Below are positions 28,475-44,104 of a DNA stretch of 64,000 bases, piece by piece. The stretch covers positions 46,562,001 to 46,626,000 of the forward strand of contig OX485804.1 of assembly GCA_950295325.1 (NCBI GenBank). Reading direction: 5' to 3'. Position 1 is the stretch's first letter; each line of letters starts with the position of its first letter. Position numbers and translations under genes: made by a program. The stretch comes from Polytrichum commune (lineage: Eukaryota; Streptophyta; Polytrichopsida; Polytrichales; Polytrichaceae). The notes under the pieces were generated by a model, which was not told where the DNA came from, ran no database searches, and saw nothing but the letters and a program-made list of their open reading frames with translations.

Positions 28475-28490
28475 TACCTTGAAGCATTCC

Positions 28491-30150
28491 ACTCTACTGC
28501 CCTCCAAATCCCCAGAAACCAAGCAGCGAAGACATCGCGATCGAAGGAGCCACTGCTGCCGAGATCCCACTGCCGATCTTATCACCTACACTGAGAATCT
28601 GCCACCGAGTTTCCACTGTCGATCCAATCATCCACATCGCACAACCGCTATTAGTACTGAAGGACATTGCTACCGAAGATTAAAACTGTTGACAAACACG
28701 GATGCCGAACCCACCGCGGCTGCTACCGATCCCGGTGCCACCTGCTGATGCACCACCGGCCCCTGCAGTTGAAGATAACCATCGCTAGCCCGGAACAAAC
28801 GTTGCTGCTCAAGAGCTGTTGCCGCTCAAGATACGCTGCCTCTGAAGAATCGTTGCCGCCGTACTCACTGTTGCTGCTGTTGACCTTCGGCGACACTATT
28901 GCTGATGCACCACCGACTCTCGCCTACAAGATCTAGTAAACTACATCGCACACTGACATATATAATAGCAGATCCTTAGATCTCCTCCTTGAAACTTATA
29001 GTTGCCCTTAGATCCCACTGCCGAAACATCTGTGAGGGAAAAAAATTTCTTTTGTTCTCTCAAAACGCATACTGGTAGATCAAGGATAGTCGAATCTCAT
29101 ATTTTTCTTTGAAAACACATAGTGGACTTTAGATCTCATCAGCAAAGTCATTTCGAGAGGCAATAGTGCTGCTAACGGAAAAAGACGCTGAAGGATACCC
29201 CCCTTCCCTTTTCTGCTGTTGATCCACTTCTAAAAACCCACAGATAGATAGGTACAATCTGTTTCAACCTCCCCCCTTCGTTCCAACTAAGGAGCACCAT
29301 CATACTTTAAATTCTGGAGGATAGGACCCTGAGCAGTTGAAGGAGCAATCGCTGCTATTTCTGAAAGGAAGACCTCGATATTAACGAAGAAAGGAGGTTG
29401 TTGTTTGCTTAAAGTTGTTGGCCGAAAGGAGTTGTTACTACCGAAGGCTGTTAAAAATTGTTGAGACTGCCGAAGGCTGCTGTTACTGTAGAAGGTCACT
29501 GTTACTGCCGAAGGTTCCTGTCACCGGCGGAAAAGAAGCATAAGTTGTCGTCTGCCCGAAGCCTGTACCAAGGACATAGGTGGAGTTGCTGGAGAGACAC
29601 CTAAAGGAGTTATCCTCGAGCTTACCACTGCTGCCAACACTAGAAAGTTGTTAGCTGCCGACTACCGAAGTCAAGACACGCAGAAGACGAGTGTTGCTGG
29701 AGAGTTGCCACTGCTACCGGGACGAAGGTTGCAGGCCACAGTTTCAAAGAAACAACCTGCGGGCACAAGGTCAGGAGCGGTTGCAGAAAGGAGTGGCTTC
29801 GGTTGAGAAGAGGCCTAGGAAATTTACACTGCTGCCCGAACTCAACCCGGTTTCTGAGAGCAGCCAGAGAAGCAGCTGCAGAGAGAAGCGGCTGGAGCTC
29901 GTCAAGTCTGTTGTAAAGGACACTGCTGTTGCTACCTGGACTCAAAACCCAGGTAAATACACTCTAATCCTCCACAAAGCACATTAGCTTTGCACTTAGG
30001 CACATGGTACACACTCAAACATAAACTCACAAATAAAATCTTCATTCTTGTAGTAGAAAGTTAAATTGCACTTATAATCACTTAGATTGCACACACACAC
30101 ACACATAAGCAATAATTAGTCACATAGCAATTTCTTTTGTAGGAGGTGGT
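28491..30150 (+). other. LINE 5' leader
   Basis: Starts directly after the target-site duplication. The first 1.45 kb is GC-richer than the rest of the LINE and full of CTGCCGAAG/GCTGCTACCG-type trinucleotide words, with no long open frame. From about 29950 the composition turns A/C-rich. A possible intron (GTAAATAC at 29953 to TTTTGTAG at 30142) is visible, but an intron in a retrotransposed copy would be odd. It probably holds the internal promoter. Confidence 0.6.
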
Positions 30151-31554
30151 ATGAAGGTTGCATATGCAACCATATTTGCCTTTGTATTATGGCTCATAGT
30201 AGCCTCCTCATATTGGAAATCCTCTCACGGTGTCCCCTCTCACACTATTTGGATAGGATATTCAAGTTGTTGTTATGAAAACATACATGAACACAAACCA
30301 ACATCAAAAGTAGTACCACCATGTTTTTATGCCTCTCCATATTGGAACCTTATGTATCTCATCAAAACATCCACACCCTTAGATAACTTAACACATCAAT
30401 ACACTAATCTAGAATATGAAAAACCAAAATTGTTGCATGCTTGGATTGCTAACAATTATTGTTCCAAAACCAATAAACGAAATAGGAATAAATTATATGT
30501 AAGACACTCAAAACACTTCTTCCCTAAAACCAATATCCAATTTGGCCCACAACTTAATTTGTGGAATGGATTTGGTATAGGGATGATAAGAAGTATGGAC
30601 CTAATTAACCCTCCACAAAAAATAAGCCACTCATTTGAACATTGTACTTGTCACAGAATGTCTACATCCACCAATGTTGCTGCCACCACTAGGAAACTAT
30701 TTGAGCAAAATATTGATATCATAGATGCATTAGCAAACGGTCAAAAAAGACAAGTCCGTGCTATGATTGTGTCTAGCCAAAAGAATGCAAAGGGCAAAGA
30801 AGTTGTATCCCCACGTCCCCCCTTTTGGTTAGGATATCATGCGATGAATGCAATTGCATGTGAAAATGGTGAAACATTAGAACCAACACTCTCGGTTAGT
30901 GAACTTGTCAAATTTGGAATGGAACATGATGAGGTATTAGAACATCTAGAAGCGGTCCCCTCTTTCCCATACATCCCCCAAGAAGCTTGGCCTTCCAAAA
31001 GGATGGATGGTAAAGAAGGTGGGCACTTCAATTTCACTCAAGTCCCTTTCGATGTAGAAGTGGATGAAGGAGTGTTTTCTATTGACTACCAAGAAGCTTG
31101 GCCTTCCAAAAGGATGGATGGTAAAGAAGGTGGGCACTTCAATCTCACTCAAGTCCCTTTCGATGTAGAAGTGGATGAAGGAGTGTTTTCTATTGACTAC
31201 CAAGTAGCCATAACTTTTGAGCTTTGTGAACGAAACTTGTCAAGGGATGAAATACATGCAAAAACAGAAGCAAGATTAAAAGCTATGAACATTGCACTAG
31301 GAGAAATCCTAGGAGAACCTATAGCTATCCTTTGCTTCCTCGGCTCTAAGAGGTGGAGTGGTACAATCAAACTCCACCTTAAGAACCCAATGAAAGATGT
31401 CAATGATCTCCTTCATGACAATAGGTCATTTATCCTTAAGTTGGATAATATAACCTATTGTAGAGGAAAGACATTCAAATCATTTGACTCCATAGCCATC
31501 GCAAGTTTGCTCTCGGTCAAAATTTCTAGACCCACACTAAAATATAGAAAATGA
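30151..31554 (+). CDS. LINE ORF1, upstream part (RRM-like)
   Basis: An open frame of 467 codons. The first 170 residues are Lys/His/Asn-rich after a hydrophobic start and may be leader sequence; a second ATG at 30661 (MSTSTNVAATTRKLFEQ) is the more likely ORF1 start. A 37-residue segment starting QEAWPSKRMDGKEGG is duplicated exactly in tandem (30979-31089, 31090-31200; one residue differs). The C-terminal third (VAITFEL..., RWSGTIKLHLKNPMKDVNDLL..., SFILKLDNI) has the beta-alpha-beta pattern of RRM-like ORF1 proteins. The frame stops at TGA 31552-31554 but remains open for another 44 codons, so this stop may be a mutation. It would bind LINE RNA. Confidence 0.65.
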   Translation: MKVAYATIFAFVLWLIVASSYWKSSHGVPSHTIWIGYSSCCYENIHEHKPTSKVVPPCFYASPYWNLMYLIKTSTPLDNLTHQYTNLEYEKPKLLHAWIANNYCSKTNKRNRNKLYVRHSKHFFPKTNIQFGPQLNLWNGFGIGMIRSMDLINPPQKISHSFEHCTCHRMSTSTNVAATTRKLFEQNIDIIDALANGQKRQVRAMIVSSQKNAKGKEVVSPRPPFWLGYHAMNAIACENGETLEPTLSVSELVKFGMEHDEVLEHLEAVPSFPYIPQEAWPSKRMDGKEGGHFNFTQVPFDVEVDEGVFSIDYQEAWPSKRMDGKEGGHFNLTQVPFDVEVDEGVFSIDYQVAITFELCERNLSRDEIHAKTEARLKAMNIALGEILGEPIAILCFLGSKRWSGTIKLHLKNPMKDVNDLLHDNRSFILKLDNITYCRGKTFKSFDSIAIASLLSVKISRPTLKYRK

Positions 31555-31649
31555 TTCCAATTGCATGAAGAGATTGTTAAAGATGGCTTCAAACGAGGGT
31601 ATGAATTTGAAGTCACTAATGTCCAAAAGAATGATAGTGCTGAATTTGC

Positions 31650-32399
31650 ATGGATAAAACCCCATCTCCGGACCAAACAAAGAAATTAAAAACCTTTAAA
31701 ATTTCAATTTTCAATAAAATCATGGAAGTACACTTTGCTAGTATAGAGAAACTCTCCGAGGATGATAAAACAAAGAAGAATGCGGTAGTATTGATTGTAA
31801 AGAACTTAAGCAAAACCAAAACCACCGCCGCCTTAGAGGAGGGAATAAAGAAACTCTTTGGGGAAGAAAATGTGGCGGGTATTTTCTTCCAATTAGAAAA
31901 GGGGAAGCATGTGGGGTCATGTAACGTGCAATGTCTGAATGCGGCAGTTTATAAGAAGTATGTAAAACAAAACCACCAAATTCTTGGTAAATACGTAGAA
32001 TTTTCACCTCATCCCAGAAGTTTGGATGGAATTGATGCCCCCTCCGCAATAGAACTTGCTAGACTAAGCTTTGCTGATGTCAACACCGCACTAATCAACA
32101 CGATTCAAGCCTTGGAGAAGGCCCCATCAAAAGGTTACACGAAGGCAGATTTGAGCAAAATGGTAGAAGAGGCGGTAAGCAAGGGGGTAGTGGAAATTCG
32201 CAAAGAAATGAGCCTCCTAAAAAATGAGATTGTTGAAGAAACAAAGGTATATGCAGACAAAGTTCAAGCTGAGTCAAACCGAAATTCAAGAATACAAATT
32301 GCACTCCTCCAAAAACAAATGTGCATCACCCTGGAAACCCTCCAAGCCGACCACCCCGACACCCCCGAAATTGAAAACCACATGGATATGTCAAACTAG
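31650..32399 (+). CDS. LINE ORF1, downstream part (RRM plus coiled coil)
   Basis: A 249-codon frame in a different phase from the preceding one and overlapping its readthrough extension. It holds a clear RRM-like unit: VVLIVKNLS as RNP2-like strand, GSCNVQCLN at the RNP1 position and HQILGKYVEFSPHP as the last strand. A charged helical segment follows (KMVEEAVSKGVVEIRKEM..., possible coiled coil). Either ORF1 has suffered a frameshift between the two parts, or this is a separate protein made by reinitiation; the short ATG-overlap arrangement does not decide. Role inferred: RNA chaperone or RNP component of the LINE. Confidence 0.65.
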   Translation: MDKTPSPDQTKKLKTFKISIFNKIMEVHFASIEKLSEDDKTKKNAVVLIVKNLSKTKTTAALEEGIKKLFGEENVAGIFFQLEKGKHVGSCNVQCLNAAVYKKYVKQNHQILGKYVEFSPHPRSLDGIDAPSAIELARLSFADVNTALINTIQALEKAPSKGYTKADLSKMVEEAVSKGVVEIRKEMSLLKNEIVEETKVYADKVQAESNRNSRIQIALLQKQMCITLETLQADHPDTPEIENHMDMSN

Positions 32400-32410
32400 T
32401 TTTGGCAAAT

Positions 32411-33980
32411 GTAGCGATGGAAACACATATTATAACAAAAGTATATTTATGTACACAACTTAATAAACAAAACAAAAAATATTACAAAGTATTATTAAAT
32501 ACTATATACAAAATATATAAATATCACACTAACAAAAATAAAATAAAAATAGTATCTATCGATACTCCAATAAAGAAACAAATAAACAAAATACAAAGTA
32601 AAACCAATGAATACTCCCATCCACATACATACATAGCGACAAGAAAACATAATGCAATAAAAATATATTTATATACAAAAAACAATAAAACCCAATACAA
32701 ACATCGTATAATATTATTAAATACTACACAAAGAATATACAAAAAATACATATTTAATACAAACAAAATAAACATAATATTTATCAATACTACCCCAAAA
32801 ATACATACAAATAATCACAAATTAAAATCAAAACTAAGACACATATTTAAGACATTAAAAATAACATAAAAATTAAAAATTAACCTCTAATACATAACAA
32901 AAAAACACACACATAAAACAAAAAGACAATACACAACAAAAACCAAAATACTAAATATCAAACACCAAACAAAGCACCAAACGGCCTCGGCCTGCCGGCC
33001 TCACCACAAAATAAAACAAATAAAACACTAAAACTATCACAACTTCTATCACATTTTTTTCAAAAACACAAAATTCATGCCAAAACAAACCAAACACACA
33101 CACTACTTCTCCAAATATACAGAAAAACCAATACATGCCCTACCCAACCTATTTACCACAAGTGTAGCGATGGAAATACATATTATAACAAAAATATATT
33201 TATATACACAAACTAAAAAACAACAAAGAAAAAATTACAAAGTATTATTAAATATTATACAAAAAATACATAAATACCATATCAACAAAAATAAAATAAC
33301 AATAGTATTTATCAATACTCCAACAAATAAACAAACAAACAATATACAAGTTTGTACTCAATCAATATTTTTCTCCAAACACATCAAAAGCAATCAACAA
33401 ACAAAAAAAATACAACTAAACAAACAAACCAAACTCACCTTAGCCTACAAGCAAATCTACACTAAGACAAAAAGACAAAACATAGTCAAAACATCATACC
33501 ACATACACAAATTGATAGATAAAATAGCAAGCAAAACCAAATACCAAATATCAAACCACTCTCCTAACTTGTGGGAGAAAGAACATTACACATCAAACCA
33601 CGCACAACACCAACTTACACACCTCAACCTTAACCTACACCTTGCACAATTCCCTATAATACAGCACACAAAGCACCAAATGGGCTCGGCCCACCGGCCT
33701 TGCCACAAAACCAAACAAATAAGATACTCACGTTACTACATCTTTCAACAAACCTTTAACACAATCACACCGCCCATACACAAACAAATCAAATTCACAC
33801 ACTACCTCCCTCACTACAAAACTAAACATAAAAGATACCCACACTACCACTTTTTTCACCAAACACATAATACAATAACAAGGCCTATACACAAACAAAC
33901 TAAACTCACTCACTATCCCCTCAAACTCCCTCAAAAAATAATAATACATGCCTTACCTAATCTATTTACCACAAGTAAAT
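32411..33980 (+). repeat. LINE inter-ORF tandem repeats (about 750-810 bp units, with smaller A-rich subrepeats)
   Basis: Two large units, 32411-33162 and 33163-33980, both start GTAGCGATGGAAA and end near ATTTACCACAAGT. Within unit 1 a third copy of the first 165 bp begins at about 32636 (GCGACAAGAAAACATAATGC). A GC-rich island GGCCTCGGCCTGCCGGCC (about 32983) recurs as GGGCTCGGCCCACCGGCC (about 33681). The open frames over this region are Lys/Asn/Thr/His-rich and reflect composition, although the second stays open for 318 codons up to the frame of the 2A-like motif. Confidence 0.75.
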
Positions 33981-34033
33981 ACACTATAATAAAATACTAC
34001 AAAATGAACAAAAGAAAACCAAAAATCAAATAA

Positions 34034-34650
34034 TACCAAGGATATCACTTCATTCATCAATTAACACTATTACAATGTGGAGACATTGAACCTCACCCTG
34101 GACCGATGCCAAATATATTGCATAGACATCCAACAACACACAAAAGAATAGCCAACACCTACTTCATCCCTAACACAATAAAATTATACCCAGAATACCA
34201 ACACCTTGCTAATTCATTTGCCCCTATACTAAAACATGAACACCCTCCACATCCAAAATCAATCCTAACATTCCCACATTTATATCAATACACGCAAACA
34301 CAAAACCACTCACCCCTACCCCACATACTATATGCCATTATTATAACCATAAACCCCTCAATAAACACTTGCAATAATATATTAGCTCAACCCAACACCT
34401 ACCACTTCAACATAGAATGGACTAACACACTAATCATCAAACTGGTTAACCTCACCAACCCCCCAGAAAGACATATCCATACACAACACCCATACACTAA
34501 ATTCATAGAAAACCATCAAGACATAATAGTACCTCCAAACTCAATACATCAAGAATTATACACTTTCATACATAGTCATGAATCACCTCCAACCCTTACC
34601 ACACTCCAAAGAATATTCCCCTTCTTACCAATCAAATTATTAAACAATTC
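34034..34650 (+). pseudogene. LINE ORF2 N-terminal region with 2A-like motif
   Basis: The frame reads LTLLQCGDIEPHPGP (2A-like residues DIEPHPGP at 34082-34105) and then MPNILHRHP... for about 180 residues of unknown fold, until the solo LTR interrupts it at 34650. LINEs of several clades carry GDIELNPGP-type motifs at the start of ORF2; here the Asn of the consensus is His. A TAA at 34031-34033 separates it from the open frame upstream in the same phase. Confidence 0.65.
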
Positions 34651-37349
34651 TGTAGATAGGTTTTTTCTTTGGGTTCCAATTAAGAAAACCACACAGGGAA
34701 GGCTAAATGAGTGTCAGGTTGAACTCTAGATGTCACAATTAGGTTAATTGATAGGTCGTAATGACTTTAGAATTAATTTAGGTTGCCAATCTCGGGTTGT
34801 CTGATGGGGATTTTATTAAAAGATTTAGGGGGAATTATTAGGGTCACTCATTGCGGTACTTGCAAATGCGCAGTCTCTCCCTCACGGCCAACCATAGTCC
34901 AGTAATATTGACTCGCTATACATTTGTTTATTTTCAATGCAGGGAGTCACGGCTCAACAATAGTCTTTGTGAATGTCCCGTAACCACACTTAATCAGGGC
35001 CAATGGCGCCCCGACATGAACCATAGTCTCTCTTTAATTAATAGAGGGTTTTAGTGGATCATGAAATACTGTAGAGCAACCCCACGGGTTATCCGAGTTC
35101 ATTGAATTATTTCCGGTTTAGTGAAGCAGTAGGACTATTTTCCTTACCTGGACCGACTGAAGGGCAATCCCCTGTAAGTTCCCGAAACCATAGGCCAAAA
35201 CACATTAGTCTCCTTGACTATGCCATAGTGTGTTAACAATTTTTCTTAATTTAATTCGACGACCCTGCAAGCGTACCTTAGGCTTATTTAAATGGATATT
35301 AAATCGTTGGTCACCATAAAGTATCCAATTGATTGTAATAAATCTTCTTGCTCTCGTATAGATGGTAACACAATCGCAGAGTTAATTAATCCTGGTAGAA
35401 TTTATGGGAGCAAAAGGTGAAAACGGTTAGTTCAGCTTACCTGGTTCTCGCCTGCTTAGGTGACACAGTAACTTCATTCAGTAGTAGCAGCAGAAGCCTC
35501 GCTGCCATCTCAGCTTTGAAGTGGTCAATGGACTGGGAGAAAATGGATGGTCTTCAAAGGTCTATAGATGTGTGCACTTGACTGTTGATTGCCCAAGATG
35601 TCCTTTAAAGACGGATGAAATGGATTCTCCCATGTGTATGGGACATCCTCATGTCCAGGAATCGAACATCCGTGGAATGTTGGGCTCTTTCCTTGTTAAT
35701 CTTTCACCATTCTCAGCCTCCTTTCTTCATCAGTAGCGTCCTCACTTCGAACACAGGGCATATTTCTCCATCCGAGATACTCTCACTATTTCAAAGTACT
35801 ACTCAGACAATTTGAATACGTCCTACACCACTTAAAGCACTCACTATTCCAACATTACTTCTCTGCCCAGTGTAACTCGTAGGAGTTGCTTCATCTGCTA
35901 CAGGTTTCACACCCCAATGTCAGGCTTCGTGTTGGGTTCAATTACCCCTTTACAAGTATTTTATTTTGGCCCAACAGAAACTCATCGTCCTAATCCAATT
36001 ATGGCCACTTTACTGAATTCCGCACATCTGGAAAAAACCTCCGAATATTGGTGCCAGATTAACTGCCTACTCCACACAAGTCATTATACTGCAATGTTAA
36101 TCAATCCCACTCGGTGATCGGGGAGGATTTTAGGACGTGATCGGCTGAGGCCCTCGAGTTTGCAAGTCCACTCGATTACATGTTAACATCCTTCGGTTTT
36201 CCTTTATTGAATTGGGGTATATTATATGAACTCCTCTAAAGCGATTGGTAATTTTCATGCAGTCTTGACCTTCAACTGATTATCCCTCAAACTCAATCTG
36301 TTCTTCCGTGACTAACTGCCAATTTTCCTCAATCCTGGTTCTGCTATCTCATTTTCTTCTCTCAAGGATTAAATCACGCAACAGAATGATTCGGATTCCC
36401 TCTTGAAGTCATTCACCTCAGCATTCACCGGAACTCTTTACAACAAACCAGGGCAAACCAATTCTCGTCTCGCAACATACGGACTCTTTGCACGATAATG
36501 AGCTATACCCATGATTCAGATTGTTGTAATTCTTTATCAAAGAATTGAAGACATTAACACAAGGTAGCTCTCACAGACAATTGTGTCGACATTGTGTGAT
36601 TCACTTCCTCTCGCACACCTTCAGACCATTATGCACACAGCTATACGGAGCCATCTATCACCACTGGAATCATGTATAAGTCAAGTTTGACAATTAGACA
36701 CAACCTCTCAATGCCATGATTCAAATGACCACGTTTCACAATTTATGACATCAGCCTCGAATCACTCGATTTTGAATCTCAAGATAAGTAAGCGTTGTTA
36801 TTTCAAGAGAATATCATTCAACTTGACGATATTGATAATCACAGCGATACAATTTTCTTACGGGAATTCAACACAGCTGGATACAACAATCATGAAAACT
36901 TTCCAATGGACAAATTATTGGGAAAAGCTGGGCTTCACACCCTAAGATTATAGCTTTGATTACATACAGAGTCCTCTATTCCCGAGAGGAGATATTATCT
37001 TTCTTAGCACACACACTCTTTTTTGCTCTGCTCTCCCCTCTTCCGACAATAGCTGAATCAACCATATCCACCAGAGGCTCAGCTCTCAAAAGTTGTACCT
37101 AACCATAGCTAGGCTTCCAAAAGTTGCTTTTAATTTCTGCACATGACTATAGCCCTTCACAGGAATCCCTCGTTATCTCTATGACGATAGTCAAAACTTT
37201 AGATTCCTAAGCTTACTAACCCGTCAGTTCATTTAGAAATCACTAATTTCAACATCTCAATACTAAATCCAAGTTTTGAAATGAAGGTTGAGCTCACAGC
37301 TAACAAGATTTCGAAGAACAACAGCTTCTATCCAAAAATTTGGATGACA
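34651..37349. mobile_element. Solo LTR (2,699 bp) nested in the LINE
   Basis: Starts TGTAGATAGG and ends TTTGGATGACA, that is TG...CA, and is flanked by the 5-bp direct repeat AATTC (34646-34650 and 37350-37354). The base composition differs sharply from the A/C-rich LINE on both sides. I find no second copy of its ends inside and no gag/pol-like frame, so it is a solo LTR left by LTR-LTR recombination, or a very large LTR of an otherwise lost element. It splits LINE ORF2 between its N-terminal region and APE. Confidence 0.85.
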
Positions 37350-37354
37350 AATTC

Positions 37355-38551
37355 CTTAGATGCTTTGAACCACTAAACGAATATTCTCACCCACCCCCGC
37401 TTCTAAATATACCCACTCAAACAACTAGAATAAACACCAATACTAATCATGAAACAAACATAATAACTTGGATTGCATCATCACTTAATACAACCTTACC
37501 TAACCTACAAAACCTCATTACCTACACACAAACAAATACAGCAATCATTATCATCCAAGAAACTAAACTTACAGCAACCAAATCCACGAAATATATTCAA
37601 AATTTATTCCCACAATACAAACTCGTATTTAACAACACACATGCACTCACTAGATGCATTCAACAATGGATGCCTTATACACCAGGAAGGGGCGGATTGC
37701 TTACTCTTATAAACAACAAATATGCCTTCCCTGGTAATATCACCAAAATTCCCACACCGGCTAGTATTTCGCCATATCTTCAAATAATACGAATAAACAA
37801 CCAACCATTAAAATCATGGCTAATTATCCACATGTATATGTCTATACACATAGAAGACCTACACCTCATCCCCAACATAAAAACTACAATCACTAATCAA
37901 ATTACTATACACCCCGATCATATTTACACCTTACGCGGAGACTTCAACCGCGACATTGCACTTATTGGTAGACAAAATGACAGTTCTAATTCACCGCCAC
38001 AAGAAGAAGACATACACTAGAAAACCTTCACTGCATCTCTAAATCTTGAATACATCCCAACAAACACCACATTCTCAAGACAAGGCGGTCACAACTATAC
38101 ATATACCAGCTTGATCGATGGATTCTACATCAACTCACCATACAACAACACATACTCCTCTACAACAAACACCCACATGAACCTAAACTCATACCACTAT
38201 CCAATCACCCTCCATATACCACATAACACACTAATAGCAAGACCCATACCCTCCAACAACATTACACAAAATAGAATCCTAAACCCGATACCACCTGAAA
38301 ACCTTGAGAATTTTAATATAAAATTCTTTGAAGAAAACTCAACACAAATACAAGACTTAAACACCTTCCTTGAAAATCATGATCATCTCACGAACACCCA
38401 ATGGCAATACGCGTGTGACACACTAGACAACATAATAAGAAAAATTTCACAAAACATAGAAGAAACATGTAGTGCAGCTCTAATACCACAACTTACAGAT
38501 CGGATAGCTCAGCAAGGTGGCTTCTTACCGCGCAAATTGGCTAAATTATGA
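37355..38551 (+). pseudogene. LINE ORF2: apurinic/apyrimidinic-like endonuclease (APE) domain
   Basis: Frames 37340-38020 and 38111-38551 belong to one decayed domain. APE motifs in order are ITWIASSLN (N-terminal strand), IIIIQETKL (catalytic Glu at about 37559), RGGLLTLI, RGDFNRDI (GDFN at 37937-37948) and, after the stop at 38018-38020, YTYTSLIDGFYIN (S-x-ID motif). The final SDH-type histidine motif expected at the end of APE is not convincing here. The domain would nick target DNA for target-primed reverse transcription. It is broken by a TAG and frame changes. Confidence 0.85.
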
Positions 38552-39119
38552 AAAAAACATCTAGCCACATATCATTTAATCAGAAAAATTATATACATTA
38601 CAAAAAATGACCCGAACTGACAAACACACCCAATACTAAATGAAATACACAACCACCAACATGTACAAATTCCCAACCCACCCACAACAAACACCTCACT
38701 AAACGTATGGATAGAGGAAATAGCAATCATTGCAAAAACCGCCATGATTTAAGCTAGAAACATTACCACAAAATATACTAAAGAATGCATACTAAAAGCA
38801 ATATCAAAATATAGAACACTATATGAAAAAAATCCTAAGAAAGTAAACAGAAAAGTTTTCAGAAACTCTGAAACCTCACCCCTAGACTCTATCATAGATA
38901 GACAAAACAACATCCTAACTAGCCCTGAAGATATAGCAAAAGAAATATACACACAACAATCCATTAGTAATCGTCTCACAGTCCCTACTTGTGCCCATCA
39001 AACAACCCACTCACAACACTGTACGTGTAGCGTACGACAATACCCGTGACACGACCTTGACGGCCTCACCATAGACCGACGCGGAGAACCTCAAATTCCA
39101 CTCCACACATACTTCGATT

Positions 39120-40640
39120 CAGAAACATATGACCTATGTCTAAAAAACCTTGGTAACAACAAAGCCCCTGGCCCAGATAAAATTTCCAATTCAATATTAA
39201 AAAACATGCCACCATGCTTTCACAGACTATTATTCATATTCTTCAAACATTGTTATAAACAAAAACAAATCCCTGCATCATGGAAAACGAGCCTAACGGT
39301 CCTACTCTATAAGAAAGGTAACCCATCACAACTCACAAACCATATACCTATTGCTTTAGCCAATACCATATATAAATTTACACAATTACTCTGACATTCA
39401 TCATCTCGGCCTACGGAGAAACATACCAAATATTACATGATAGCCAAGAAGGATTCAGAACAGAAAGAGGAACTTCCAGACAACTCCAAGTACCTATTGC
39501 TGCACTAGAAGATGCAAGATTTACAAAACAGGACATATACATTCTATATATAGACTTTAAAAATGCTTTTGGCTCTATAGACCACGCTAGATTTCTAGCA
39601 ATAATGAAATTCCTTGGATACCCAGATGATGCCATAAACCTAATCGGAAATATATATTCGCAATCTACGACCACATTTATAGGAGAACACTTTGGCAAAA
39701 CATAACCTATCATCATTCAAAAGGGAATAATACAAGGAGATACCCTAAGCCCATACCTATTCATCATATTCTTAGAACCCCTTCTAAGATGGTTACAACA
39801 GGGAAATAATGGCTACACATTCGGAACATCCAAAGTAAAAATTTCCTCAGTAGCGTACGCCGATGACCTAGCAACAATAGCAAACAAATTGAAATCGCTA
39901 CAAATACAACTCAACAAACTTGACATATTTTGTGAATGGGCTGGCATGGATCTTGGAATCTCCAAGTGTGCAATTACGGGATGCCCAAACAAATCCAAAA
40001 TGAGCCCCCTAGCTTTTAAAACCCAAATACAAGCGACTAATATAAACTACAAAAACGAACCTATACCAGTTTTGAGTCAAAATGAACCATACACATACTT
40101 AGGAATAAACCTTGCCCCCTCACTAAAATGGAAAACACAAATACACACCACTACCACCAAAGTTATAAAACAATGCAAAGATCTCGCAGCCTGTCCAGCT
40201 ACTATGAAAAAAAAAAATCAATATGGCGGACATAGTTATACGCGCCGGAATTGCATATAGTTTCTATGCGGTACCATACTTCTTATCTGCCATAAAAAAA
40301 CTTGACAAAAAAATTATAGCCCTCCACAAAACAATATGTGGACTACCAAAATCCACGTCAAACATAACTACACAACTCCCTCTTGACTTATTCGGCATAG
40401 AGGCCTTCTCACTTAAAAATGCCTACTTACGATGTATAGGAGAACAACTACAACATGCCCTCAATGACATAGGCAGACTAGGAAAAATCTATAAAGGATT
40501 GCTTCAATTTATACTAGCAACATTTGGTGGCGCCGAAGAGATACCTCGTATCAAATATCACCAATGTGTCCGTTCACCTATAACTAGAACACTATTCCTA
40601 CTCAAAAAAGAAGCAGGAGTTCACTGAAAGAGCACAATAA
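39120..40640 (+). pseudogene. LINE ORF2: reverse transcriptase
   Basis: Non-LTR RT blocks are all visible in order, in pieces: NKAPGPDKI, IPASWKTSLTVLLYKKGNPS, GFRTERGTSRQL, the motif A aspartate in YIDFKNAFGSID (39553-39555), GIIQGDTLSPYLFI, the catalytic YADD (39856-39867), GISKCAITG and YTYLGINLAPSLKW. A TAA at about 39703 and several frame changes show that the copy is dead. The stretch 40223-40640 is probably the thumb/connection region. The upstream part (38552-39119) has no recognised domain. Confidence 0.93.
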
Positions 40641-40648
40641 ATAACTTC

Positions 40649-42268
40649 ATGTTTAACATCTCTCCACTTGAAAATGATTGGATGAAAGAAGCGCAAAACT
40701 TACACGGCCTGAATCATAAAACATCGCTTAAATTATTACAAAAATTATTACTACACAACATAACTGAACTAGGGCAAATCACTCTACCCAATGGCCTCAA
40801 CATGATGTGCCTAAACGATTTTAAAAACTATTATTCCAACCCTACCAAACTAATCAAAAGTGCACTAAACATTGCTCAACAACTATTCTGTCACCCCCAC
40901 TGCCCCCCTCAATGTCAACAACCATGCCCGCACCACTACCTACCCAGAACCCTAAAAGAAAACTACATAATAACAAATCATAACATTCTCCCCAGACAAC
41001 CTAAGCCGCCACTACACCCCCCAAACCCACCCCACCCACATCACCCACCCCCACCAAGAGATGTGCTTAAAAACCCTAGGCAATTCCCTATTCACACCAT
41101 CCTTGACCATAAAAAAACGACAATACACTAACTCCAATGGAATAATGAAAAAAGACACATCATATCTATGCCAATGGATAATAAACAACCATAACACCTA
41201 TAATAAATGGCTAACCCAAAGAGACATGTTCCCTTGGTACGAAGCTAACATATGTGCACACAACTCTAGACTACTAACACAATACTATACTGAACAACAA
41301 CATAAACACTACTCAAACTTAATAAACGCTCACTTTGCCACTGAACAACAACGAGATACGAGATATGTCACCCCTGCAACAAATATCCCAATGGCACATA
41401 TTTCTATCCATGAGTGTAACCCCGAAAATGACATAGAAACCTCCACAAATACTATCCAAACGCATTTTGATGTTGCCAACATATATGAGGACAAGGGACG
41501 GCACCTCATTACCATTCCCAAAACCAGACTACATTGGCTCTGGAAATAATACCAACTCGCACAAAATACCCCACATGGGTTAGAACCACCTACACAACCA
41601 TTCGAAACTGAAATAGTATGGCTATACCAAAGGTACAAGTACCGGATCCCAAAAAATGACCCACTAAAACTAGCCCAATACACATTACCAACTCCAATAT
41701 TAATTTTTCTCATCACATCATTCAACATTAGTCATTCATACTTCTCATCCCTAGTCACATGCCATACACAACTTAATAGATTTTACTCTCCATTCGCAAG
41801 AGATAAAATATTTGGATCATTAGGGAAAGCCTTCGACCACAAATGGAATGGAATAGGCTTTGCCCTCCCCAACAACGCTACAGACCTATTACATGCTACA
41901 CATTGGGCCCGTCTTGCTGCCAAAGATGACCCAAGCAACATCACAATAATCATCTCACTTAACATAAATTGGTACCAAAACTTCAACCCATACTCGGGCC
42001 CATTCCCATATACACATATTATCGCTCACTTTGCGGCAGATACAATCACATACGAAGAACCTACTATATCACTTGAACTTAATATACCTAGGAAAGAACT
42101 CTCCACACTACAAATACTCTGCATACACCACCAAAATAACCACATAGGCACCTATGAACAGCTGAATCAACTCACCCATATTGCAAATAACCTCTCAATA
42201 ACACAACTATACACACAGATTGCCATGCACAACCCCCTGAATACTCTTGTCAACCCTAACAAAAAGTA
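40649..42268 (+). pseudogene. LINE ORF2: linker and unrecognised domain between RT and RNase H
   Basis: Open pieces 40649-41131, 41061-41549 and 41550-42268. The first carries a Cys/His/Pro cluster (CHPHCPPQCQQPC) that might bind a metal. The last is free of stops and contains ordered, conserved-looking blocks: FGSLGKAFDHKWNGIGFALP, HATHWARLAAKDDPSNITII and HIIAHFAADT. I do not recognise this fold. Dualen is reported to carry an additional cysteine-protease-like domain, but I see no clear catalytic set here. Recorded as a domain of unknown function. Confidence 0.5.
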
Positions 42269-42339
42269 GTCCAAATTAACTTACCCCGATACCCCTATAC
42301 TCAATGTATCACCTATACCTCAACTACCGGACTACCAAA

Positions 42340-42860
42340 CTAATTTACCATTGAAATACCATCCACAATTTAGTTATTACACCGATGGCTCATTCAAAGA
42401 ACCCAAACTAATCTCTACCGGAGTATGGAGGAAAGAAATGGCAGGATATGGTATTTATAGCCCTAAAGGACTAAGTATAGCCGAAAGGCTATATGGATAC
42501 CAGAATATCCCTCAGAGCAGAAATGATGGCTATACATAAAACATTGCGAATTATCAACGACCAATATCCAAATGAGCCCGCATATATATTCACCGATGGC
42601 CTCAATGTCCTATACCTACTAAACACACAAATCAAACACCCCACACTACACAATAGTCACCCAGACCAAGTCACACTTGCCTCCATGGTAAAATTACTCC
42701 AAAAACGCTCTCAACCAACTACATTATACAAAGTTAGAGCACATGTCAACATAGACGGCAACGAACAAGCAAATTAATTAGCAAAAGAAGGACTGGACCT
42801 TACCCATAGAAATGCCATACACCCACACGAACACGCTCATGCCACACCTTACTACTATCA
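42340..42860 (+). pseudogene. LINE ORF2: RNase H domain
   Basis: The RNase H1 catalytic set is present across two frames: SYYTDGSF (first Asp, 42384-42386), RAEMMAIHKTL (Glu), YIFTDGLNVL (second Asp) and HVNIDGNEQAN followed by LAKEG (last Asp region). A frameshift lies between about 42480 and 42520, and a TAA interrupts after EQAN at about 42775. The domain would remove RNA from the RNA/DNA hybrid after first-strand synthesis. Confidence 0.9.
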
Positions 42861-43836
42861 AAAAGACAAATGGCCCTCCATGATAGACACGCCAGACAAG
42901 GGCCCAGTCAGATTCCTAGAAAAACAAATCAAAAAATATGACATAACAAACAACTTAGAAAACATGGCCGCACAAGCCCCTAATATTTGGAAATGGATAG
43001 GCAATGAACACATTGACAAGGAACTTTCTAACGAATTCTAGAATAACCCTACTATTACGGACAAACAGAAGTCATGTCTTATCAAATTTCGTACAAGAAC
43101 TTACATGGGCCAAGCCAGAAAACAACTCTTCTTTGGTAGACAAAGATTCCCCACCATCACCTGTCCCATCTGTAACTCATATGAACCTGACACATGGCTA
43201 CATGTACTACTCACATGTAGGCAACAACATATTCACTCTCTACACGTAAAAAGACATAACAAAGCAATATGGGAAATAAGGAAGTTACTAATCTCATCTG
43301 AAAAATCCCGATGCTACACCCTTATGAACGCTGGCACCTTTAATGACAACCCCCAAGAAAACACCGTCCCTAACTGGTTATTACCCTGCACATGTGGAAC
43401 CCAAAGATGCCACTGCAACTCCCGTTTTAAACCCGACATTCTTTGCGTTAAAGGACTATCATATCAAAATACACCCCCCACAAATGTAGACCAAACAATT
43501 ACCATACAAATCATTGAATTCACATACTGTAATGATAGATTTTCACCAGCAACTCTAGAAGCCAAAACTAACAAATACCAACCACTGATAGAAAGCATTG
43601 CTGCCCTAGGTTGGAAAACCGACCCGCTTATTGTTATTACAGCAGGCGCCAGAGCCGCAACACACATCCCATCAATGAAACTACTGGAAGACAAATTTAA
43701 AATACCTATGTCATCCATCCGAAATACCTTCAAAACCATTAATACCATTGCGATACAATACGCCATGTCCATCTTGCTCCACAAAAGAAGACTTGAAAAT
43801 CACCAACCTCTACCTCAAATACAAGACCCCCCCTAA
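42861..43836 (+). pseudogene. LINE ORF2 C-terminus: CCHC knuckle and restriction-like endonuclease (RLE-like) block
   Basis: The frame 43105-43836 (243 residues) has a CX2CX9HX4C knuckle (CPICNSYEPDTWLHVLLTC, 43162-43218), an RHN motif in VKRHNKAIWEI, a second cysteine cluster (CTCGTQRCHC), then KPDILCV (Pro-Asp at residues 110-111), IIEFTYCND (Glu138), a KTNKY lysine pair and LIVITAGARA. This order (CCHC, RH-D/N, PD...D/E...K, then a conserved GAR block) is that of the RLE in R2-type LINEs. A TAG at about 43039 separates it from RNase H. The call rests on motifs only. Confidence 0.68.
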
Positions 43837-44091
43837 ACTCCCTAGATCAAACTAAACAAAACAAACCCTATATTAAACCATCCCTTGGGTATAGTCTCCC
43901 TTTGTGTCATTAACCAATATTGGTTACTAGCTCTTATTTGTTACTGGTTACTTGTGACTATAGTGTCCACTCTCGAAAGGGGGAAGTAGTTCCTCACTTC
44001 TACTCCTATGTCCCATGGACATAGGTTTAGGGGTGGAACGAACAGACACTTCATTCACGTTGGTCCCCCTGGGGATCGAAGTTTCTTATCT
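43837..44091 (+). other. LINE 3' UTR and SINE-shared tail
   Basis: Follows the ORF2 stop. From 43953 it aligns with the SINE tail: GACTATAGTGTCCACTCTCG, CGAAAGGGG, GAACAGACACTTCATTCACG and GGATCGAAGTTTCTTATCT correspond in order to the reverse complement of 16447-16600. The probable LINE end is TTTCTTATCT, immediately before the 3' copy of the target-site duplication. Confidence 0.85.
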
Positions 44092-44104
44092 CTTGAAGCA
44101 TTCC

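Follow-up and report, generated by a model that had tools for sequence, protein, structure and literature searches.

Among the LINEs described so far, those closest to the element reported here are the Dualen/RandI group of non-LTR retrotransposons (Chlamydomonas and relatives), in which a single element combines an APE endonuclease upstream of the reverse transcriptase (RT), an RNase H and a restriction-like endonuclease (RLE) downstream. Dualen has been used to argue how LINEs swapped the RLE for the APE (PMC4640811), and in the literature consulted it is reported only from green algae (PMC4438587, Table 3), while land-plant LINEs are described as L1 and RTE only (PMC9033089). Here we describe a large and recently mobile LINE family with this dual-endonuclease architecture from a moss-like land plant. 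It was recognized in a 64,000-nucleotide window (Polytrichum commune, GenBank assembly GCA_950295325.1, contig OX485804.1, positions 46,562,001 to 46,626,000 of the forward strand; all coordinates below refer to this window). In keeping with a land-plant host, and probably a moss, the light-harvesting proteins of the genome were closest to those of the moss Physcomitrium.

Structure of the element and its intact relatives

A first-pass annotation had claimed a LINE with both APE and RLE-like endonuclease domains at 34034-43836. We confirmed that observation, but found that this interval is only the 3' part of a larger element, and that the annotation had missed ORF1, the true ends, a nested insertion, a 2A peptide and a PCIF1-like domain. 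The element spans 28491-44091, is bounded by a 13-bp target-site duplication (TSD), and is full length but dead, with several frame changes and stops, an APE Asn to Ile change, SYH in place of SDH, and EPHPGP in place of ExNPGP in the 2A motif. Its features are as follows.

28478..28490 (+), 5' TSD, CTTGAAGCATTCC (13 bp), repeated exactly at 44092-44104
28491..44091 (+), whole LINE copy, full length and dead, with a nested insertion
28491..30150 (+), 5' UTR region, between the TSD and the ORF1 start
30151..32399 (+), ORF1 (approximate bounds), with an N-terminal hydrophobic segment MKVAYATIFAFVLWLIVASSYW, a frameshift near 31555-31656 and a 111-bp tandem duplication at 30978-31208
32375..32399 (+), 25-nt overlap of the ORF1 end and the ORF2 frame, motif TGWCAAACTAR
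32400..34033 (+), ORF2 leader, A/C-rich and G-poor, with GC-rich hairpin-like units and, in this copy, in-frame stops
34034..34105 (+), 2A/StopGo-like peptide YQGYHFIHQLTLLQCGDIEPHPGP (core GDIExNPGP at 34079-34105, N to H in this subfamily)
34644..37354 (no strand assigned), nested insertion, an older dispersed repeat, not part of the LINE
37391..38233 (+), APE endonuclease domain (WxASSL, QETK, GRGG, GDFN, SLID; SYH in place of SDH)
39101..40451 (+), RT (AYADD)
41445..42242 (+), PCIF1/CAPAM-like domain (LPNN at the NPPF position)
42360..42813 (+), RNase H domain
43162..43260 (+), CCHC zinc knuckle and RHN motif
43162..43833 (+), CCHC and RLE (Asp 43435-43437, Glu 43516-43518, Lys 43564-43566)
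44060..44079 (+), predicted 3'-terminal hairpin before the microsatellite tail
44080..44091 (+), 3' end and short pyrimidine-rich tail TTTCTTATCT
44092..44104 (+), 3' TSD

Related copies in the same genome are intact. Three copies, 99.3-99.6% identical, about 12-12.7 kb long and each with a 12-bp TSD, carry a ~733-aa ORF1 (747 aa from stop to stop) and an uninterrupted 2625-aa ORF2 with the order leader, 2A/StopGo peptide, APE, RT, PCIF1/CAPAM-like domain, RNase H, CCHC and RLE. The window copy is collinear with intact copies L049-L054, and a second intact family, with a 2919-aa open frame, is 65% identical. Across the copies examined, TSDs were 12, 12, 12, 13, 13, 14 and 12 bp, and the seven insertion sites were unrelated in sequence. 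These intact copies also reject a chance composite, in which an RLE-type LINE inserted into an APE-type LINE and the two were read as one element. Although the window copy does contain many frame breaks and a 2.7-kb nested insertion, the latter lies between the 2A linker and APE, is absent from sister copies L013 and L014, and has 70-84% identical pieces elsewhere, whereas APE, RT, RNase H and RLE lie in one frame in the three intact copies.

Among the non-coding features, the 25-nt overlap has the same length in L013 and L049, and a classical -1 frameshift heptamer, looked for there by eye, was not seen. The 3' hairpin had 98.5% of cells paired in 17 distinct copies, but covariation was little and not above shuffles, and folding energy was not unusual, so it is only a prediction. 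Other copies end in (TCTA)n or (TCTTC)n. Rfam revealed no ribozyme or other RNA family in the window element, and the only two hits in sister loci were weak, sub-threshold miRNA matches.

Both endonuclease domains are conserved

All of the motifs named in the first-pass annotation are present in the translated sequence, and they are not chance. For the APE, QETK lies in ORF 37304-38020, GRGG at about 37690, GDFN at about 37937 and SLIDGFY at about 38110, with WNASSL, QETK, GDFN, SLID and SDH in intact copies. Although the APE match is weak by single sequence, Pfam identified Exo_endo_phos in L013 (1.3e-5, over its cut-off) and Exo_endo_phos_2 in L049 (1.4e-4). Pfam also identified RVT_1 (7e-14 in the window, 1e-29 in sister copies) and RNase_H (PF00075, 1e-11 to 2.6e-15). 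Downstream, CPIC-x9-H-x4-C lies at 43162-43218 and RHN at 43252-43260, both in invariant alignment columns, followed by KPD, with the Asp, Glu and Lys codons given above, and TAGARAAT.

The C-terminal block had no Pfam or PDB sequence match, so the case for an RLE rests on fold and motifs. Profile searches of IMG/VR with the RLE or RT found no relatives. The structural model is modest (mean pLDDT 60, best core 70-85), but its top Foldseek hits were R2 proteins (9nl2, E 2.8e-4; 9dou, 1.6e-3), and all seven VIA-align matches with Z>=8 (Z 8.3-9.3) were R2 retrotransposon proteins, followed by other PD-(D/E)xK nucleases and Prp8. The catalytic residues match R2Bm Asp996/Asp1009/Lys1026 in order (PMC10499050), and the Asp is kept in about 87 of the first 100 of 289 genome matches. 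The block thus matches R2 RLE domains rather than a non-nuclease family.

The RT was likewise closer to R2 (111-117 bits) than to human L1 (67-73 bits), and every family examined carries the RLE. An ordinary plant L1 or RTE element whose C-terminal block only resembles an RLE is therefore very unlikely, even though plant L1 elements also carry APE, RT and RNase H, since three complete R2-like motifs in the right order are hard to get by chance. Both observations support the interpretation of the first-pass annotation, with "Dualen/RandI-like" resting on architecture and on RT similarity to R2, not on a clade assignment.

Evolutionarily, both nuclease domains are under strong purifying selection, with dN/dS between two families of 0.081 for APE, 0.055 for RT, 0.069 for the PCIF1-like domain, 0.052 for RNase H and 0.072 for RLE (0.09 for RLE where dS is only 0.61). 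The equal constraint on APE and RLE suggests that both are used. Alternatively, only APE might cut, with the RLE surviving as a DNA-binding or second-strand-positioning domain: TSDs at unrelated sites resemble APE-type rather than site-specific RLE-type insertion, and Prp8 suggests that an RLE fold can persist without nuclease activity. We consider this unlikely, because the catalytic Asp, Glu and Lys are conserved across families that are 35% diverged, and because a binding-only domain would not need the Asp retained at the frequency given above.

StopGo peptide, PCIF1-like domain and inferred life cycle

The StopGo core (D/G/C/N)(V/I)ExNPGP (PMC12846837) is represented by GDIE(S/P/T)NPGP in intact copies and in about 88 of the first 100 of 167 listed places; the motif was matched at these 167 places, against 0 for the reversed pattern. 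The leader before it is open in the ORF2 frame in three families (L013, L014 and L049), against 12-17 stops expected. ORF1 matched no Pfam family.

The PCIF1/CAPAM-like domain matched Pfam PF12237 at the cut-off in the window (31.1 bits, 2.1e-7) and more strongly elsewhere (40-56 bits, up to 1.1e-12), with matches above the cut-off in 150 scored places, although its structural model was too poor to use (pLDDT 46). This family is a CAPAM-like methyltransferase (PMC7641849), and with a dN/dS of 0.07-0.13 the domain could be a working N6-adenosine methyltransferase that marks the element's own RNA cap. This seems doubtful, however, since the catalytic NPPF is replaced by HPxN in most copies: of the first 100 listed places, 98 have His and 2 have Tyr at the Asn position, none has Asn, and none has Phe or Tyr at the last position. 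The domain most likely serves as a non-catalytic cap, RNA or RNA-polymerase-tail binding module.

Taken together, we are confident that this is a copy of a dual-endonuclease non-LTR retrotransposon with the Dualen/RandI architecture. Functionally, we posit that its RNA is two-cistron, that ORF1 makes an RNA-associated protein, that ORF2 is reached by AUG-independent re-initiation at the ORF1 stop, and that a StopGo peptide sheds the leader and frees a ~2340-aa enzyme. This enzyme would recognize the 3' end of its RNA, with one endonuclease making the first nick for target-primed reverse transcription and the other cutting the second strand 12-14 nt away, while RNase H removes the template; these roles are inferred. 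A young, abundant land-plant family with both nucleases intact and equally constrained makes the question of why two nucleases are kept testable in moss, where gene targeting works. It would also provide a retrotransposon-borne CAPAM-like domain and a naturally occurring StopGo element in a plant genome (a 2026 survey found none in plant viruses, PMC12846837). Pipelines that know only L1 and RTE in plants may mislabel such elements.

Comparison with known systems

With Dualen/RandI elements, the family shares APE upstream of RT, RNase H and a downstream RLE in one element, together with a short-repeat 3' tail, which is (ATT)n or (CTATTT)n in algae (PMC3747384). The family described here has a moss-like land-plant host, an ORF1 without a known family, a StopGo peptide before APE and a PCIF1-like domain between RT and RNase H.

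With the RLE-only R2/NeSL/CRE LINEs, it shares an RT most similar to R2 among solved structures and a CCHC, RHN and PD..E..K C-terminal nuclease with a predicted R2-like fold, but it also has APE and RNase H, about 900 aa inserted between RT and the linker, dispersed unrelated target sites and 12-14 bp TSDs. With plant L1 LINEs, it shares two ORFs, the APE-RT-RNase H order, TSDs and dispersed insertion, but differs in the RLE, an RT closer to R2, a microsatellite tail instead of poly(A) and the StopGo peptide.

2A/StopGo-bearing LINEs (L1Tc/Ingi of trypanosomes; sea-urchin and other animal LINEs) similarly have GDIExNPGP upstream of APE in the same frame, whereas here the host is a plant, the element bears an RLE, and a leader of about 280 aa precedes the peptide. 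Finally, in comparison to the PCIF1/CAPAM cap m6Am methyltransferase, the domain matches PF12237 over up to about 75% or more of the profile and retains FGSxG and surrounding residues, but has HPxN for the catalytic NPPF and is embedded in a retrotransposon polyprotein.

Copy number, ends and state of the element

Motifs for two endonuclease types were described in the first-pass annotation, with an APE set upstream of the RT and a CCHC knuckle, RHN, PD...E...K and GAR block downstream of RNase H, and these motifs are all present in the window sequence. Because the reading frame is broken many times, we turned to other copies in the same 408-Mb genome, where a DNA search with the C-terminal block gave 40 further places at 88-98% identity, and a protein search gave 143 scored matches out of roughly 5515 first-look candidates (candidate counts are approximate). 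Exact 13-bp repeats (CTTGAAGCATTCC) delimit the element, which is organized as follows:

28478-28490 and 44092-44104: the two exact 13-bp repeats
28491-44091: the element
about 30151-32399: ORF1, followed by a leader
30978-31208: 111-bp in-frame tandem duplication (98% identical) inside ORF1
34034-34105: 2A-like peptide
about 34644-37354: nested 2.7-kb insertion, followed by APE, RT, PCIF1-like, RNase H and CCHC-RLE

The window copy is dead. The nested insertion is absent from L013 and L014 (two other copies in this genome) and is itself an older dispersed repeat, whose two best other copies (73-74%) lie about 25 kb from contig starts (C7:25907-28048 and C6:22444-24661), suggesting a subtelomeric element. 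The genome also has 58 matches to the chlorophyll a/b-binding family, and a tandem array of near-identical LHCB genes, as well as a second cluster of more distant family members (possibly ELIP-like), was noted at G000:C5:1751760-1846160 and C2:29.39-30.91 Mb.

Intact copies and possible module exchange

Three copies, each spanning two extracted loci (L049+L050, L051+L052 and L053+L054), are 99.3-99.6% identical and have an open ORF1 (747 aa stop to stop, about 733 aa from the first Met) and an open ORF2 of 2625 aa, overlapping by 25 nt. Their lengths between 12-bp duplications are 12,702, 11,965 and 12,490 bp, respectively. A further family, represented by L055 and open for 2919 aa, is 65% identical over 1750 aa. 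The family is therefore recently mobile and has diverged into several intact lineages. ORF1 proteins start with a conserved hydrophobic, signal-anchor-like segment (MKVAYAT...MWLVLA; window 30151-30215, L016 at 5398, and the L049/L050 ORF1), which is unusual for a LINE ORF1. Compositionally, the ORF2 part of the window copy (32400-44000) shows strong strand asymmetry, being G-poor (about 12% G, GC skew about −0.35), while ORF1 is not, suggesting different histories of the two ORFs. Additionally, two copies (L016+L013 versus L017+L014) share ORF2 at 85% nucleotide identity but not ORF1 or the 5' region, pointing to swapping of 5' modules between families.

Two endonuclease domains

The C-terminal block has no Pfam or PDB sequence match. 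However, a structural model built from nine aligned copies (mean pLDDT 60, C-terminal core 70-85) has R2 retrotransposon proteins as Foldseek's best matches (E 2.8e-4 and 1.6e-3, probability 1.00), and in VIA-align the seven entries with Z 8.3-9.3 are all R2, followed by PD-(D/E)xK nucleases and Prp8. In the alignment, C103, C106, H116 and C121 (CCHC), R133-H134-N135, P193-D194 and E221 are invariant, and K237 and K240 are kept wherever sequence is present. R2Bm uses Asp996, Asp1009 and a Lys on a helix (PMC10499050), and the order and helix position agree. By our reading of the first 100 of 289 genome matches, 87 keep the Asp. An extra invariant CxCx4CHC cluster (alignment positions 178-187, in the C-terminus of the L049 ORF2) lies between RHN and PD, just before the PD motif, and is a possible second zinc site in the RLE.

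The APE was detected as Exo_endo_phos (1.3e-5, above cut-off) in L013 and as Exo_endo_phos_2 (1.4e-4) in L049, with all the usual catalytic motifs in intact copies; its PDB hits are exonuclease III proteins, though weak. Evolutionarily, dN/dS between L049 and L013 is 0.081 for APE, 0.055 for RT, 0.069 for the PCIF1-like domain, 0.052 for RNase H and 0.072 for CCHC-RLE. Synonymous sites are near saturation in this comparison, but in the closer pair L049/L056 (dS 0.46-0.61) the PCIF1-like and RLE values are 0.13 and 0.09, respectively. These values indicate that both nucleases are used.

Reverse transcriptase relationships

PDB matches of the RT rank the R2 proteins of two vertebrates (110-117 bits) over R2Bm (73) and human L1 (67-73). 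This ranking argues against a plant L1, although it is not a tree.

Leader region and StopGo-like motif

In L049, L013 and L014 the frame between ORF1 and the 2A motif has no stop, against 12-17 expected from first-order shuffles and 13-18 in the other frames, so it is translated although it evolves fast (dN/dS 0.55). Repeated GC-rich CTCGGCCTACCGGCCTCG units, which are possible RNA hairpins, occur in this otherwise A/C-rich leader (e.g., at about 32980 and 33680 in the window and about 1480 in L013). No Met is conserved near the leader start, the ORF1/ORF2 overlap is 25 nt in the window, L013 and L049, and the junction motif TGWCAAACTAR is shared; we infer AUG-independent re-initiation, as is probably the case in mammalian L1.

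The motif GDIExNPGP-MPN occurs at 167 places, with none for the reversed pattern, and in the first 100 N is kept in 88 while x varies (S, P, T, L, A, I, F). Across the genome, 96 places match GDIE(S/P)NPGP and 12 match HPGP, including the window. The core agrees with (D/G/C/N)(V/I)ExNPGP (PMC12846837), and since N to A abolishes activity in F2A (PMC12846837), the HPGP subfamily is probably weak or inactive.

A PCIF1-like domain with an altered catalytic motif

Between RT and RNase H, PF12237 scores 31-56 bits, and the only PDB sequence matches of the profile are human and zebrafish PCIF1 (E 0.12-0.31, weak). This Pfam family is noted to be a CAPAM-like methyltransferase, not a WW domain (PMC7641849). 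The aligned NPPF, however, reads HPHN, HPPN or HPNN, and in the first 100 of 286 genome matches the first residue is His in 98 and Tyr in 2, never Asn, while the last is never Phe or Tyr. The motif is therefore altered and fixed rather than decaying, and a binding role is more likely than methyl transfer, though no structural support for the domain could be obtained.

Insertion sites

Target-site duplications (TSDs) are 12-14 bp in seven of seven insertions whose ends were found, at unrelated sites. Tails are (TCTA)n or (TCTTC)n-like after a predicted hairpin. A fixed offset between two nicks fits two nucleases with set positions, but this is inference.

Comparison with known LINEs

Dualen/RandI elements carry both endonucleases (PMC4640811, PMC3636483) and were listed only from green algae (PMC4438587), and land-plant LINEs are described as L1 and RTE (PMC9033089). 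No report of Dualen in land plants was found among the papers searched, although a Repbase entry from a moss cannot be excluded. The first-pass annotation, which had proposed a Dualen/RandI-like LINE with both APE and RLE-like domains in a land plant, was right in substance: judged by architecture rather than by an RT tree, the element is a Dualen/RandI-type LINE in a land plant, with two additional domains.
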